The translations under genes were made by a program, and so were the position numbers. A DNA stretch of 34,322 nucleotides from Candidatus Peribacteraceae bacterium (GTDB lineage Bacteria > Patescibacteriota > Gracilibacteria > Peribacterales > Peribacteraceae), in NCBI GenBank assembly GCA_028711445.1, contig JAQTSD010000015.1:1-34322 (forward strand), in the 5' to 3' direction. Positions 23,525 through 30,472 of the stretch are shown piece by piece. Under the pieces are notes generated by a model. It had not been told where the DNA came from. It did not search any database and saw only the letters and a list, made by a program, of their open reading frames with translations. The first letter of the stretch is position 1; each line of letters starts with the position of its first letter.

Positions 23525-25093
23525 TCATGAGGGGATCATCCATGTGAGCAGGCGCAGGGCGATCGTTCGCCGCCTCGATCCGCGCGGCAGGAGGCGTGGG
23601 ATGCGTCGGTCGAAAAAGGATTCAGCGCACTGAGCGAAGAGAGGGACAGCAGTCGGTTGTCTCTGTGCGGAGGGAGAGGTCTGGATGCGCTCTTCCTTCG
23701 ACGTGTTTTGCATGTGCAGAGCGGAGATCATCTCCTCCAACCATGCGGTCTTGCGCCGCTCATCCGCCAGGGCCGCTTCCGCCAGTGCGGATTTCTTCGT
23801 CATCTCTTCCTCCAACCATGCGGTCTTGCGCCGCTCATCCGCCAGGGCCGCTTCCGCCAGTGCGGATTTCTTCGTCATCTCTTCCTCCAACCATGCGTTC
23901 TTTGCACGCTCATTTTCCAACATCTCTTTCAACCATGTTTTCGTGCGTCGCTCGTATGCCAGTGTAACATTCGACCATGTGGTTTTTCTCCTCAACGCTT
24001 CTTCCAACCATGCGATCTTCGAGTGTTCGTTCACGGATTTTTTTTCGAGTTCTCTGATACGGAGCGATTCGAAGGAGGGGGTATTTCCCCCTTCCTCATC
24101 CCGCGCCCAGAAGTAGTGGCGAACCTGTTCGTGCAGGATGGGTTTTTCCGTGGCCCATGCCCAGCATCCGTTGTCGTCGATACGGATGTCCGTGCGTGGA
24201 TCGAAGGGGTGCAGGATGGCTGCGCGCTCGATGTAGTAGCGTTTCTCTTGTCTTCCGTGCCAGAGGTGGTGAATTCGTCCATCCACGAAGGAAACACTGC
24301 CACGTACGATGGATGCCATGTGCTCTGTCCATTCCCGCGCATCCAATAGAAGATGGGCGGGATAATAATCGATGATGAAGTTCTCTTCGATGGGGATGCC
24401 GAGGAATGCGCCCATGATGAGTGCATCACCTCCCCCCAAAATCATTCTGTCATAGAAAGGAACTTCTTCAAGAATGCGTCGCCGCGCGGCGACTGCGTAC
24501 CCCGGATGCCCACAATACGTTAAGCGGAAGTGATGAGGCGAGGTGATGGCCCACTGATGCGCTATGCATGGAAATGCTTTTCCCGTTGTATGGAGTGACC
24601 TGTTTCTCTTGCGAGTGGGATGAGTCCGGGGGAGCTGGATGGCGGCTGCAAATGGTTGGATGACCATGTACTTTTCGAGAAGTGTGCAGGTTTTTGCGAT
24701 CCAATCATCTTCTTGGAACAGGATATCCGTATCAACCCAGACAACCTTGTCACAATCGGGTGGCAAATGGGAGAGGGCAATGGAGAGGAGCCGCTCTTTC
24801 TGCCAGAGAACGTCGGAGGTATGTAATTGAATAATTTGTTCCGCATCATCATTCGCAAGATCGAACGGCCGTTCATCCATGGCCACTTCGACGACGATGA
24901 GTTTCAGTCCCTGTCGCCTGGATGCTGCGCGAAATTTCCGGTAGTTTATGAGACGATTCCGGTAAGAGGCGGGGTTGAAGTACGCGGCGATACCCCAGAG
25001 CGTTCCAGGGAGCCTTTCGGGGAATTGCGGTGGGTGCGTAAGCGGCGGAGCACTCGCCTTCTTCTTTGCCTTCAAAAGAGCCAAAGGGTGCAT
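23525..25093 (-). CDS. Glycosyltransferase with C-terminal coiled-coil repeat region
   Basis: KVVWVDTDILFQEDDW (DxD), CGHPGYAVAARRRILEEVPFYDRMILGGGDALI; start placed at MHPLALLKAKKK (25093); repeats KTAWLEEEMTKKSALAEAALADERR. Confidence 0.75.
   Translation of the reverse strand: MHPLALLKAKKKASAPPLTHPPQFPERLPGTLWGIAAYFNPASYRNRLINYRKFRAASRRQGLKLIVVEVAMDERPFDLANDDAEQIIQLHTSDVLWQKERLLSIALSHLPPDCDKVVWVDTDILFQEDDWIAKTCTLLEKYMVIQPFAAAIQLPRTHPTRKRNRSLHTTGKAFPCIAHQWAITSPHHFRLTYCGHPGYAVAARRRILEEVPFYDRMILGGGDALIMGAFLGIPIEENFIIDYYPAHLLLDAREWTEHMASIVRGSVSFVDGRIHHLWHGRQEKRYYIERAAILHPFDPRTDIRIDDNGCWAWATEKPILHEQVRHYFWARDEEGGNTPSFESLRIRELEKKSVNEHSKIAWLEEALRRKTTWSNVTLAYERRTKTWLKEMLENERAKNAWLEEEMTKKSALAEAALADERRKTAWLEEEMTKKSALAEAALADERRKTAWLEEMISALHMQNTSKEERIQTSPSAQRQPTAVPLFAQCAESFFDRRIPRLLPRGSRRRTIALRLLTWMIPS
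23741..23900. repeat. 75-bp in-frame tandem repeat, two near-identical units plus the start of a third and degenerate flanking units
   Basis: CCATGCGGTC/CCATGCGTTC recurs at 23741, 23816 and 23891 (75-bp spacing); encodes a 25-aa coiled-coil repeat. Confidence 0.9.
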
Positions 25094-25370
25094 GTGCGGG
25101 TACCCATTGTGCAGGGTGGATGTGAGTTTGTCACCGTGGATTCGCGAAAACTTCTCATCCCTCCAGGGTTTCACTTCCCAATTCTGGAGGAGAACCGTTT
25201 TGAATTATATTCTGGTGGTCTGACCTATACTACTTTCGAACCGAGATTGCAGAGACCTATGAGCGGCTGCGCAGTGTCAGTTCTCTGCTTCAGGTAGCGA
25301 CAACTGCCTAGAGTTTCTTACAGCATTGCACTCCAAAAAATGACACGTGAGTGGCATGGTGACTAAGTAT

Positions 25371-27575
25371 CTAAAAACCTGCTCCAAATATTCGATCCAC
25401 TTCTTTGCTTTCCTCTTGAATTCTTTGCCATGGTGATCCGCGATCTAAATATTCATGTTCAATATCATCTGATTCTGAAGGAAATCGCTTCCTTAACTTT
25501 TCCAAATCAGAGATATCAGTCTGTAAACCAAAATAGGAATCAATTTCTCCAATTTCAGCAATACATTTATCTAATTCGCCTAGATCACCGTGGAAGATTT
25601 CATCCTCATCAATATAACCAGTATTCATTCCATCTGAACAAATTTCATTCGCGATTTCCTCGGCTCTGCTAATCAACTCATAAGCCGATGCTTCGTTTTC
25701 TTTCAGAAAAGCTTCCAATGCAGGCAAATCAATGCCTTCCATTACATGTTTGAGTTCATCGTAATCTCTTATTCCATCGGCAAGCTCTTTAATTACATAT
25801 TCGTAATCAACATCAATTTCGGGGCATTCAATAATCAAATTTATTAGTGAAATACTAACATCTCCTTGACCAACTAAATACTCTGCTTTTTCTTGGATGA
25901 AAGCCATAACTCCCTCAACGTCTATGTGCCTAGAAAGCGAAAGTAACTTTTCTGCGTCCTTATTTCTATGCACACTAGGTAAATCAAATTTATCCATTGC
26001 AATCTCTACATATTTATTTTGTCTACTGAGATTCAAAAAATATATTATCTGCTCCCAAAAAATACAATTATTCAGCATATCCTCAATTAGCACTTCATTG
26101 TTTTTAATTCTTGCCAGAAGGAAATCAACAACAGAAGGATTGATGAATCTCACAAGATGAACGTATTTGCCTCCAACATTATGAACATCTAAAACAATAA
26201 AAGATTTTTGCAGTTCCTTAATTGATAAATCGAAATCATTTGCCTGCATCGAGTTGTTATATTTTTTGCATTGATGCGAATGGAATTTCATCCAAGCTTC
26301 TTTAAGCTGATCCAATTTGCATTGTTTTTGTAGGCCATAAAGGACATAGAGCAAATTGCGCGATGACTCTGTTATTTTCAGGTCAAAAGCGCTTTTCCAA
26401 ACGATTTGAGGGTCATTTAAATGCCTTAAACACTCAGCAATAAAAACATCCACATCATCTATTTCATTCAGTCTCGATAAGTCTTCAATGATTCTTGGGC
26501 TGTAATTTCGATGCTCAATAATTTTATGATAATACTTCTTTTTACATATGCTATCTTTTACTTCTTGCGATAAATCAGAATGGTAAAGGTGATTATACAG
26601 GATTTGAGCTTTTTGTACTTTAGTGTAGCTTTCCAAATCAATCACACACTTTGAAAAATCCACATTCGATCTTTCAATTTTCTCATATTTAATTTTCGCC
26701 TGATTGAGAATGTATTCTCTAGTTGTAAAAATCAGTTTTTTGTTTTTAGACTTGGCAATTTTTTCAATAAAAATGCTAATTCTACTGTCTTCATTCTTTT
26801 CGAGAAATTGCTCAAGAAAGTTAGCACCTAAGAAATCGTCATAATAGAAAATTTGTTTCTTGTCTGAATTATCGAATTTCGTGGCAGCTTCTTCAATGTC
26901 TTTTGAAACATAAATCAGCTCATATCCATCGTTTAAATAATTATATATAAGCATATGAGCCAAGGTTGTTTTACCAATTCCTGGTTCACCAGAAATTATG
27001 CAGTATCCATTTATTTCAAGAAGCTCATTTGCCACTTTGAAACTTTCGTTCTGCACATAAAGCGATAAGTCCCTGTTTATTTTGTCTCTGGAGAATTCGG
27101 AAAAGACCTCAATCCCACTATGAAGAATTTTTTGAAGGATCGCGGTATCTGCAAGCCAGAGTTTAAAGTGTTGCTTGAGTATTTCTGGATTGGAGCTAAG
27201 CAAAGACTCGATCTCTGTAATCCCGTAAATATCTGCGGTACATTTGATAAACGGCTTAAAAATTTTCATAATTTCATCTTTATTGTCTGGGGTGAGACCA
27301 GCCGATGTTGCGACGATGTATCTATCGGGTTTCAGCTTTTTCACTTTTTCAGCTTCAAGTTTCAGGTTCTTCATTAAATCGTTCGTTTCCTTATAGTGTT
27401 TGCATTGGATAATTGTTCCATTTTTGTTTTTCGGATGTGAGCAACGCAGGTCAATCCCCTCATCGGGTCCATTAGTAAATATCTCCAAGCTTATTTCCAG
27501 TTCCTTTTCTATTAAATCTTTCATTAGTTTTTCGAAATCAGTCGGGGACAGCCGACCGAAATTATAAGTACTCAT
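25371..27575 (-). CDS. N-terminal PD-(D/E)xK restriction-endonuclease-like (Mrr-like) domain fused to STAND/NACHT-like P-loop NTPase; putative defence effector/sensor
   Basis: FEKLMKDLIEKELEISLEIFTNGPDEGIDLRCSHPKNKNGTIIQCKHYKE (D-EGID-QCK); GEPGIGKTTLAHMLIYNYL Walker A; QIFYYDDFLG; KKLIFTTREYIL. Start at MSTYNFGRLSPTDFE. Confidence 0.83.
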   Translation of the reverse strand: MSTYNFGRLSPTDFEKLMKDLIEKELEISLEIFTNGPDEGIDLRCSHPKNKNGTIIQCKHYKETNDLMKNLKLEAEKVKKLKPDRYIVATSAGLTPDNKDEIMKIFKPFIKCTADIYGITEIESLLSSNPEILKQHFKLWLADTAILQKILHSGIEVFSEFSRDKINRDLSLYVQNESFKVANELLEINGYCIISGEPGIGKTTLAHMLIYNYLNDGYELIYVSKDIEEAATKFDNSDKKQIFYYDDFLGANFLEQFLEKNEDSRISIFIEKIAKSKNKKLIFTTREYILNQAKIKYEKIERSNVDFSKCVIDLESYTKVQKAQILYNHLYHSDLSQEVKDSICKKKYYHKIIEHRNYSPRIIEDLSRLNEIDDVDVFIAECLRHLNDPQIVWKSAFDLKITESSRNLLYVLYGLQKQCKLDQLKEAWMKFHSHQCKKYNNSMQANDFDLSIKELQKSFIVLDVHNVGGKYVHLVRFINPSVVDFLLARIKNNEVLIEDMLNNCIFWEQIIYFLNLSRQNKYVEIAMDKFDLPSVHRNKDAEKLLSLSRHIDVEGVMAFIQEKAEYLVGQGDVSISLINLIIECPEIDVDYEYVIKELADGIRDYDELKHVMEGIDLPALEAFLKENEASAYELISRAEEIANEICSDGMNTGYIDEDEIFHGDLGELDKCIAEIGEIDSYFGLQTDISDLEKLRKRFPSESDDIEHEYLDRGSPWQRIQEESKEVDRIFGAGF

Positions 27576-27577
27576 CT

Positions 27578-29737
27578 TTATGAGAAAATATTTGTAAATA
27601 TGGCTTCTAATTCTGGTTTTGTGGTTGTCCCATCTGCAATAACTGGACAACAAGCGAGAGCTTGCTCCTTGGTTTTTATTTCATCGCAAGCAGCCAGCGC
27701 ATTTGTCACCTTGTCGGCACCATAACCTCCAACTCTAGAAGGATAATATTCCTCAATAGAACCCTTTATTAAAATATTAACTCCTGCCGCCCTTATTGCA
27801 TTCGCAAGTGCTATTTTCTTTGGCATTAATTCAGAGCGACTTCTTAGTGCATTTCTTATCAAAAAATATTCTTCATCACTAAAAAGTGATTCAATAGTGT
27901 CTACTTCCTGAGCCGTAGGTGGAGTGCCAGCGACCATACGTCCTGTAATTGCCTTAACCTCATTGTATCTTTCGAGAAAAGTTCGTGAACTAGAAATACG
28001 CCTAGCTTCATCTGCCGTAATCGAGGTTTCTTGGCTACTGGCAACTAATCTTCTTGCCTCTTGTATAAGGTCACTTTGTTTTGATTGGTGAGCACTCATA
28101 TCGCCAAGTTCTGTGAATTTATCAACTACGCAATCAAGATCCGCAATAATTCTAACCTCTACTCCAAAACATTCAAAAAATGTTCGATAACGTTTGAAAT
28201 TCCCCTTACCCCCTATTTTTACTAATGCAATATTCTTAAAATCGAAGTCCCAGTCCTTGCTCAAAGTTTTTGATATGTGCTTTAGATAAATTAAATCCGA
28301 ATCTCCTTCTACTAATACAACTCTATTACAAAAAAACCCTGCATTATTATTTTCGTAACAAATTGTTTGGAATGCCTCTCTCTTTGATAAATCATTCAAT
28401 AGATCAATTTCCCTTATCGTAGAATATGGCACCTGTGGAGCGGCCACTTCATCTTTATTAATTCTTAGAAAAGTTCCAATTCCATCGGGACACAGGAAAT
28501 AAGGCGAGTGAGTGCTCATTATCACCTGATGCTGTTTGGAAATACTAACCAAAGCATCATATAAAATTCTTTGGCCTCTTGGGTGCAGATACAGCTCTGG
28601 TTCTTCGAATAGGAATAAATATCGCTGAGAAGGGGCAGCTTCTGCTTGATCCTCGCGTTTATTACGAAGTTCTACGTGTGTTCTAAGCAGCGCAAACATT
28701 ACAGCACGTTTTACCCCGTCACCTTTTGACTCTACTTCGCCATCAACTCCGTCGTTCAAAAAAAGTTTCGCGTTTCCGAATATAGTTTTTAATTCTGGTG
28801 GAGGAATTTTAATTTCAAGTTTCATTTGCTGGAACTGCGCTGCTAAATTTTCTGCTAATGCCTTTTCAATCTCCATTATTTCCTCTAAGCGTTCATCAAC
28901 TTTTTCACCTCTTTCATTAACAATGCAGTTCAAATGCTTGTTGAGTTCTGTAAATGATTCTGCGATTGCTGAGATTTTTGGGCTTTTCGAGACTGTTTCA
29001 AGCAAAAATTTTAAAATTTTCCCAAAACTCGTTGCCTCCTTTGTTTTAAGTTCATCAGAAATGTCTTTTACCGCTGGTACATAAATAATTTCTGGAAAGA
29101 CAGCATAAATGCTTTCTGGTATTCCAGTTGTCAGGCCCATTTCCTTTTCGACAAGTTGGCCAGAAGGGAGAGAATTTATATAATTTTCGATCAGTTCTCT
29201 AAACCCTTTTTGAGTAGTGACTCCGTTTGCATTTGCGCTAACCTCAGGATAAGAAGCCAATACTGCAGTTTTAAGTTGGGCACCACTTTTTCCTGACATA
29301 ACTTCATCGATCTTTTCTTGATCAAACCTTAAATCGGAAGGTCTTAAGCCAATATAATTCAATGAGTTTGAGCCATCGACCTTATATCTTCTTACAAGTT
29401 TAAGCTTGTCGTTCACCACAAGCTTGGCAATTTTTTCCCTGTGGCTTTCATCCAATTTACTAAGTTCATTAGAATCTAAACCTTCGAATTGAAGAGTGAT
29501 TGCGATGTCTTTTTCTCTGTCATAGAAATCTTCCTTTTTCAATTTCTCTGGCTTAAAAAATAAATTTAATCCAATTAAAAACGAGGACTTTCCAGCATTG
29601 TTCTCGCCAACAATTGTTACAAGTGAAGATAGGGTAGGAGCAACCTCTTTTAATGACCGAAAATTATCTACTTTTGTACTGGTAATGTGCATTTGAGAGT
29701 GGGAAGCATATTTAGATTCTAGACCAATTTCAGACAT
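27578..29737 (-). CDS. OLD-family ATP-dependent endonuclease (ABC-type ATPase + TOPRIM)
   Basis: VDNFRSLKE...IVGENNAGKSSFLIGLNLFF Walker A; YLFLFEEPELYLHPRGQRILYDAL; HQVIMSTHSPYF; VVLVEGDSDLIYLKHI, KIGGKGNFKRY...VRIIADLDCVVDKF TOPRIM. Confidence 0.9.
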   Translation of the reverse strand: MSEIGLESKYASHSQMHITSTKVDNFRSLKEVAPTLSSLVTIVGENNAGKSSFLIGLNLFFKPEKLKKEDFYDREKDIAITLQFEGLDSNELSKLDESHREKIAKLVVNDKLKLVRRYKVDGSNSLNYIGLRPSDLRFDQEKIDEVMSGKSGAQLKTAVLASYPEVSANANGVTTQKGFRELIENYINSLPSGQLVEKEMGLTTGIPESIYAVFPEIIYVPAVKDISDELKTKEATSFGKILKFLLETVSKSPKISAIAESFTELNKHLNCIVNERGEKVDERLEEIMEIEKALAENLAAQFQQMKLEIKIPPPELKTIFGNAKLFLNDGVDGEVESKGDGVKRAVMFALLRTHVELRNKREDQAEAAPSQRYLFLFEEPELYLHPRGQRILYDALVSISKQHQVIMSTHSPYFLCPDGIGTFLRINKDEVAAPQVPYSTIREIDLLNDLSKREAFQTICYENNNAGFFCNRVVLVEGDSDLIYLKHISKTLSKDWDFDFKNIALVKIGGKGNFKRYRTFFECFGVEVRIIADLDCVVDKFTELGDMSAHQSKQSDLIQEARRLVASSQETSITADEARRISSSRTFLERYNEVKAITGRMVAGTPPTAQEVDTIESLFSDEEYFLIRNALRSRSELMPKKIALANAIRAAGVNILIKGSIEEYYPSRVGGYGADKVTNALAACDEIKTKEQALACCPVIADGTTTKPELEAIFTNIFS

Positions 29738-29751
29738 ACGCTATAATGCGC

Positions 29752-29876
29752 CTGACCCAACTTGCCGTGGGGCTTTCTATGCCCCGCCTACATCATCGCT
29801 CAGTGCAGAAAGGGGCGTCTTGCCTCGGTCAACGCACTGACGATGTAGGGCAACCTTATCGGCAACGTTGGGTCAG
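29752..29876. repeat. ~125-bp imperfect long inverted repeat / structured element
   Basis: Outer arms CTGACCCAACTTGCCG (29752-29767) and CGGCAACGTTGGGTCAG (29860-29876); inner arms CCTACATC..CAGTGC (29787-29806) and GCACTG..GATGTAGG (29834-29849); sub-hairpin GGGGC-TTTCTAT-GCCCC. Confidence 0.8.
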
Positions 29877-29921
29877 CCGAGCAGGGTGCCCCTTCTTGCA
29901 TATTTCTTCTCCCATAAAATT

Positions 29922-30212
29922 ATGGTCAAACAGGAGCAGCCAGCATCTGCGAAAAAAATGCGCGAAGAAATGAAACAAATGGCTCGGGAAGGTCGCGCAA
30001 AGAAGAATGATCCAAAGGCTCAAGCTGCCCTTGCACGCGAGATACGTGCTGCAAAGAACGCAAAGCAGCAAAAGAAAGTTCAAGAACCCCTCACTTGCCC
30101 TCGCTGTGGCTCAGCTCAATTCACTGCACAACGCCGTGGCTTCGAACTACAGCGTACGAGGAAGAAACCTAGTCTGGGAGCTGCGCTCTCCCTTCAAACA
30201 GGCTTCGAATAA
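29922..30212 (+). CDS. Small basic protein with one CxxC zinc-knuckle-like motif
   Basis: MVKQEQPASAKKMREEMKQMAREGRAKKNDPKAQAALAREIRAAKNAKQQKKVQEPLTCPRCGSAQFTAQRRGF... Confidence 0.5.
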   Translation: MVKQEQPASAKKMREEMKQMAREGRAKKNDPKAQAALAREIRAAKNAKQQKKVQEPLTCPRCGSAQFTAQRRGFELQRTRKKPSLGAALSLQTGFE

Positions 30213-30228
30213 AGCCTTTTGTCCTGAA

Positions 30229-30313
30229 TGGTGGGCCGGGAGGGACTCGAACCCCCGAAGCCGTAAGGCACCGCGTTTACAGCGCGGCGGAATTGCCACT
30301 ATCCGACCGACCC
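30229..30313 (-). tRNA. tRNA-Tyr (anticodon GTA), encoded CCA, long variable arm
   Basis: Minus strand GGGTCGG...CCGCG CTGTAAA CGCGG...GGGGG TTCGAGT CCCTC CCGGCCC ACCA; 7-bp acceptor, anticodon at 30278-30280, class II variable arm. Confidence 0.95.
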
Positions 30314-30472
30314 ACGAGCAACAATGGAAAACGAAAGAGCGGAATGCATTCCGGAGGACTCGTCCCGCACCGGAGCCGAAGGCGACTGGTGTTGGGGCCG
30401 ACCCACGAAGCGAAAGAAGCATACCGCAGTCTTCTTCCAGTGCAACGCACAAAGCCGGTCTACCCTTGTGTC

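Follow-up and report, generated by a model that had tools for sequence, protein, structure and literature searches.

The plus strand of the window (the whole 34,322-nt stretch of Candidatus Peribacteraceae DNA analyzed here) probably encodes a structured RNA, about 145-155 nt long and starting near position 29753, that serves as the 5′ leader of the gene at 29922, belongs to an undescribed RNA family carried on integrative mobile elements of Peribacteraceae and controls the expression of the cargo. The probability of this reading was estimated at roughly 0.66. Its fold, pseudoknot, strand, −10 box, ATG spacing and mobile setting were derived by comparison of copies, and from these we infer the control of the cargo.

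Fold of the repeat and its homologues

The outer arms of the repeat, CTGACCCAACTTGCCG (29752-29767) and CGGCAACGTTGGGTCAG (29860-29876) on the plus strand, form 16 base pairs around a single bulged C. Just inside the first arm, fold prediction placed the plus-strand hairpin GGGGC-TTTCTAT-GCCCC (P2, 29769-29785); relatives mostly carry a hairpin there with a differing sequence, and the alignment of P2 was too poor for a covariation count. The predicted folding energy was −70.9 kcal/mol (z −5.9); 200 dinucleotide shuffles averaged −46.1 kcal/mol without reaching so low a value, and on both strands the fold lay approximately 6 standard deviations below shuffled sequence. Pairing and the shuffle test thus confirmed the long inverted repeat of ~125 bp, with arms of 16-17 nt and a GGGGC/GCCCC hairpin, reported in the preliminary description. 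The arms were placed correctly in that description, which missed the conserved 3′ tail at 29877-29899 that pairs with the apical loop. In Rfam 15, no family reached the gathering threshold for the element (the best matches, E 2.6 and 4.5, were far below gathering scores), and the sole Rfam match in the whole window was a tRNA.

The search for copies proposed earlier for this genome and related genomes returned a single full copy in the element's own 1.25-Mb genome and diverged copies in relatives. A 33-base match at C44 had hinted at another copy in that genome and was rejected, as the pattern is absent there. BLAST against 58 relatives recovered four clear relatives. A first covariance model (R1, from five sequences) then matched full-length copies in 21 of 74 genomes across the family at E 0.05. 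A second one (R2), run on 353 genomes of the class, confirmed 18 at E 0.001, every one in the window's own family. The covariance searches gave about 23 copies more, almost all of them in a single family of Patescibacteria, labeled Peribacteraceae; most genomes carry one copy and some carry two or three. The true copies in the named genome collection were in genomes labeled Peribacteria/Peregrinibacteria. Matches of the genome scan in Streptomyces, Polaromonas and others were rejected as chance matches of a short pattern, and no true copy was found in the viral, phage and plasmid collections searched.

Two copies lie outside the family, one on a 4.9-kb contig labeled Paceibacterota (L083) and the other on a 17-kb contig of another order (G437). 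Because both contigs are short, a binning error is as possible as transfer, although G437 and G067 have an element neighbor in common as judged by eye. The G437 locus, from a different order of the phylum, has a full element copy before a 1569-aa PDC-S37 helicase.

Covariation was counted in 20 copies in a plain MAFFT alignment (A4), with pairs scored for a named structure. For the whole structure, 94.6% of 703 cells were paired compared with 29-49% when the partners were slid, and both-side changes were observed at 19 of 36 pairs; none of 500 shuffles reached the paired or both-side values. The core of the closing stem P1, GACCCAAC (29754-29761) with GTTGGGTC (29867-29874), was paired in 99.3% of cells over the 20 sequences, and seven of its eight pairs vary on both sides. 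In the window copy, P1 is extended to 29752-29767 / 29860-29876. The P3 stem (TCAGTGC, 29800-29806, with GCACTGA, 29834-29840), which carries the conserved apical loop, was 91% paired with both-side changes at four of seven pairs. The P4 hairpin AGG-GCAA-CCT (29847-29856) was 98.3% paired with both-side changes at two of three pairs; its loop is a GNRA tetraloop, and a GNRA loop is found in most relatives. All three stems are read on the plus strand. The aligned copies contain many G-U pairs that are possible only with this strand folded, indicating that the plus strand is the folded strand. Absence of covariation in homologues had been named beforehand among the outcomes that would speak against an RNA, and in these relatives covariation was found at a level matched by 0 of 500 shuffles. 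Compensatory changes beyond those of the controls thus identify the element, as far as sequence comparison goes, as a conserved structured RNA. The family has no Rfam match and is undescribed.

Pairing between the P3 loop and the 3′ tail

The most conserved sequence of the element lies in the P3 loop, AAAGGGGCRTCYTGCCTCGGTCA, and in the tail outside P1, CCGAGCAGGGTGYCCYTTCTTG. In the window, the apical loop strand AAGGGGCGTCT (29810-29820, plus strand) is the conserved 5′ half of the pseudoknot core; the pseudoknot 3′ strand GGGTGCCCCTT (29884-29894, plus strand) lies within the conserved 3′ tail CCGAGCAGGGTGCCCCTTCTTGC (29877-29899, plus strand), just outside P1. This 11-bp core was 98.6% paired with both-side changes at five pairs, which was reached in 0 of 500 shuffles, and it exceeded all shuffles and slides in both the paired share and the both-side counts. 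Seven more pairs beyond the core are weaker. Each loop paired with its own tail at a mean of −30.1 kcal/mol versus −25.4 kcal/mol with the tails of other copies (permutation p 5e-5). The loop-tail pairing is also kept in G083c and L083, two copies outside the defining alignment, and, by inspection, in G437. In G083c, the loop has GT in place of AA and the tail, correspondingly, AC in place of TT, at positions that are invariant in A4.

The loop has an alternative pairing, GGGGC (29812-29816) with GCCTC (29822-29826), which was 95.8% paired with no both-side change. Four of the 11 core pseudoknot pairs are invariant in the defining alignment, and therefore some of the conservation could be due to binding by a protein or the ribosome. 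Extended to 18 bp, the pseudoknot may be under steric strain; the 11-bp core is easier to accept.

Promoter box, start codon and mobile cargo

The TATAAT at 29742-29747, noted earlier as standing just before the first arm, was verified, with a 10/12 sigma-70-like match on the plus strand, and is the −10 box of the promoter predicted for the leader. A TAnnnT is present 8-9 nt before the modeled start in most of 23 copies, with a mean match of 4.57/6 versus 3.0-3.4 at control positions. The −35-like TAGACC at 29720 is not conserved, and no conserved −35 was found among the 23 copies. A −10 box so positioned would have transcription begin at the foot of P1. At the other end, the 22 analyzed copies all have an ATG that opens a reading frame 1-40 nt past the tail (22-30 nt in 16 of them), and the window ATG, 24 nt past the tail, is like those of the relatives. 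The frame after the tail is very short in two copies, G082a and G083a. The first codons ATGAGCATGAGCAG are common to several unrelated downstream proteins. A Shine-Dalgarno motif was absent from all 22 tail-to-ATG spacers, with only 10% of control genes having one, and the spacers are rich in pyrimidines (73% versus 55% in control genes, p 1e-6).

Because the −10 box precedes the fold and an ATG follows the tail at a near-constant distance, the element is best read from its sequence as the 5′ leader of the downstream plus-strand gene (ORF 29922-30212 in the window), not of the divergent OLD gene. Its position just upstream of the start codons of different genes is that of a structured 5′ leader. 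The OLD frame opens at 29737, and an internal methionine near 29692 may be its true start as judged by eye. The preliminary description had suggested as one option a TATAAT followed by a structured RNA divergent from OLD, which is well supported by the covarying homologues and the conserved −10 position. It had also placed the repeat directly upstream of a defence operon; this holds for position only, as OLD is divergent and the −10 box and fold face the ORF at 29922. The minus-strand region (25371-29737) encodes an OLD-family nuclease (PADLOC Old, E 2e-93) beside an Mrr/nSTAND3 protein that matches the candidate defence family PDC-S73 (E 7e-155).

The first gene after the leader encodes 96 aa with a CPRCGS zinc-ribbon-like motif (29922-30212, plus strand); a search of 73 further genomes from the family did not recover it, and it has no Pfam match above the cut-off. 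This ORF is probably truncated at its junction with a recombinase remnant, and the window copy may therefore no longer work. In other copies, the downstream genes include type III methyltransferases, PDC-S37 (a candidate defence helicase) and proteins with N6_N4_Mtase or MBOAT (acyltransferase) domains; others encode membrane or secreted proteins as read by eye. Recurrent among the downstream products are multi-span proteins without a Pfam match, glycosyltransferase-like by reading. Related multi-span proteins occur downstream in L098, L101, L102 and L096 (genomes G082, G083 and G032), one G083 copy being split into two frames. The downstream genes are diverse mobile cargo and point to no particular ligand. 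A common regulator encoded beside the element was considered and rejected, as the divergent neighbors are mostly unrelated to each other.

A large serine recombinase is encoded less than 7 kb from 12 of 23 copies, where the arithmetic for 70 recombinase matches spread over the roughly 24 Mb of 19 genomes gives about one by expectation, and in seven loci its C-terminus overlaps or abuts a tRNA gene. A recombinase nearby at a tRNA gene is the setting of cargo of a serine-recombinase element, and the window retains a remnant of it. The large serine recombinase C-terminal remnant (30121-30252, plus strand; 22/44 residues identical to the L103 recombinase C-terminus, E 1e-11) runs into tRNA-Tyr (30229-30313, minus strand; ARAGORN, Rfam RF00005), and the same stretch is conserved in the sister genome G001. 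The tRNA-Tyr is likely the island attachment site; the site is an old integration site and still a hot spot. In G001, the OLD and Mrr/nSTAND3 pair is absent, and genes of 735 and 337 aa occupy the same slot. The suggestion of a recombination scar marking the island edge found no support for the repeat itself, although the window copy does lie in an island, in the remnant of a serine-recombinase element at tRNA-Tyr. No direct repeats of at least 11 bases bounding the window island were found between 30080-30320 and 24800-27000. In G021 (L097), direct repeats of ~51 bp that run into tRNA-Ala flank an island of about 2.5 kb, in which the element lies together with its gene. That island contains a 174-aa gene, a MUG113/T5orf172-domain gene and a 272-aa gene, with no recombinase recognized inside. 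The position of the element relative to mobile-element ends is not fixed. In L100 and L103 (G082 and G080), related proteins resembling the phage terminase small subunit, one of which has a weak Pfam match, end 45-47 nt before the element.

Rival readings and the proposed mode of action

Because loop and tail remain complementary from one element to another, one copy could pair with another in trans; primase or replication genes occur on several of the elements, and some genomes hold two or three copies. These features would suit a free-standing small RNA of the mobile element that acts on other copies through loop and tail, in the manner of the P4 satellite CI RNA, in immunity or copy control, with the downstream gene merely adjacent. 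The tight start-codon spacing is unexpected for such an RNA, no terminator is evident 3′ of the tail in the alignment, and the loops pair best with their own tails, making this reading unlikely. The CI RNA and immunity leader of satellite phage P4 likewise comes from an integrative element and has complementary segments within it; the element here differs in having these segments in the leader of a cargo gene and in each loop pairing best with its own tail. Slightly less likely still is a ribosome-recruiting leader, in which the pseudoknot and the pyrimidine-rich spacer would position the 30S subunit when the mRNA has no Shine-Dalgarno motif. All 22 spacers lack the motif, are pyrimidine-rich and keep a constant ATG distance, and the loop AAAGGGG could, by inspection, pair with the 16S 3′ end; however, control genes are mostly without a Shine-Dalgarno too, and no special element would be needed.

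A DNA site read as a hairpin, such as a transposon or cassette end or an origin of replication or transfer, is very improbable. The long inverted repeat would fit it, as would a place on mobile DNA close to genes for recombinase and primase, but the GNRA loop, the G-U pairs on one strand and the conserved −10 and start-codon spacing would not; the position also varies relative to element ends, and no edge duplications were identified. The MITE-like element suggested earlier was not borne out: the genome has one full copy rather than several near-identical ones, the copies in relatives are diverged, no target-site duplication was identified, and the spacing to the start codon is fixed. An integron attC site was likewise rejected. 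The outer arms in the window fit RYYYAAC...GTTRRRY with a length in range, but the GTT core, invariant in attC, is not kept in relatives (ATTGGGT, CTTGGAT, GATGGAG), and a conserved −10 box and start codon are foreign to attC. A chance fold or meaningless repeat, consistent with the single occurrence of the long stem in this genome, has a negligible probability given a z near −6 and the strong covariation, and the homologues refute it.

In the favored reading, a cargo-gene leader, the −10 box at the 5′ edge would start an RNA near 29753 that folds into the closing stem P1, the variable hairpin P2, P3 with its conserved loop and the GNRA hairpin P4. The P3 loop would pair with the tail just outside P1 in a pseudoknot of 11-18 bp and might toggle between this pairing and its internal GGGGC/GCCTC hairpin in response to some host factor or small molecule. 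Through this, the leader would control cargo gene expression, most likely at translation start. Judged from the sequences, translational or co-transcriptional control by exchange of loop hairpin and pseudoknot appears the most likely mode. A switch in which the freed tail hides the start codon was rejected, as modeling in 22 copies showed no consistent effect (Wilcoxon p 0.97); an expression platform of the riboswitch kind, hiding and freeing the start codon, was thus not found in this model comparison, and control may instead act at termination.

Riboswitches and other structured 5′ leaders resemble the element in having a promoter, a compact multi-stem fold with a GNRA hairpin and pseudoknot, an ATG at a fixed distance and one segment with two exclusive pairings; unlike them, it has no Rfam match, and its cargo is diverse rather than of one pathway. 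The family is of a known general kind, the structured leader, and its tie to mobile cargo in Patescibacteria is unusual. More tentatively, one RNA control device may be common to unrelated Patescibacteria elements and tie the translation of the defence and surface genes that these elements carry to a host signal, or directly to the ribosome, without Shine-Dalgarno motifs. If true, this would be a mobile expression module working with any cargo gene, and a leader common to different elements and cargo would point to one host signal or factor that times their expression of defence and surface genes. The element also offers a handle for finding mobile elements in hard-to-annotate genomes. Regulatory RNA in Patescibacteria appears little studied; a search of the open literature turned up no work that links riboswitches to Peregrinibacteria, nor any that treats structured RNA motifs of the candidate phyla radiation. 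The guide RNAs of TnpB and IscB (reRNA and omegaRNA; e.g. PMC11061315) are structured RNAs on mobile DNA. The element shares this feature with them and differs in that no such nuclease was recognized among the neighbors examined and in that it precedes varied coding genes.
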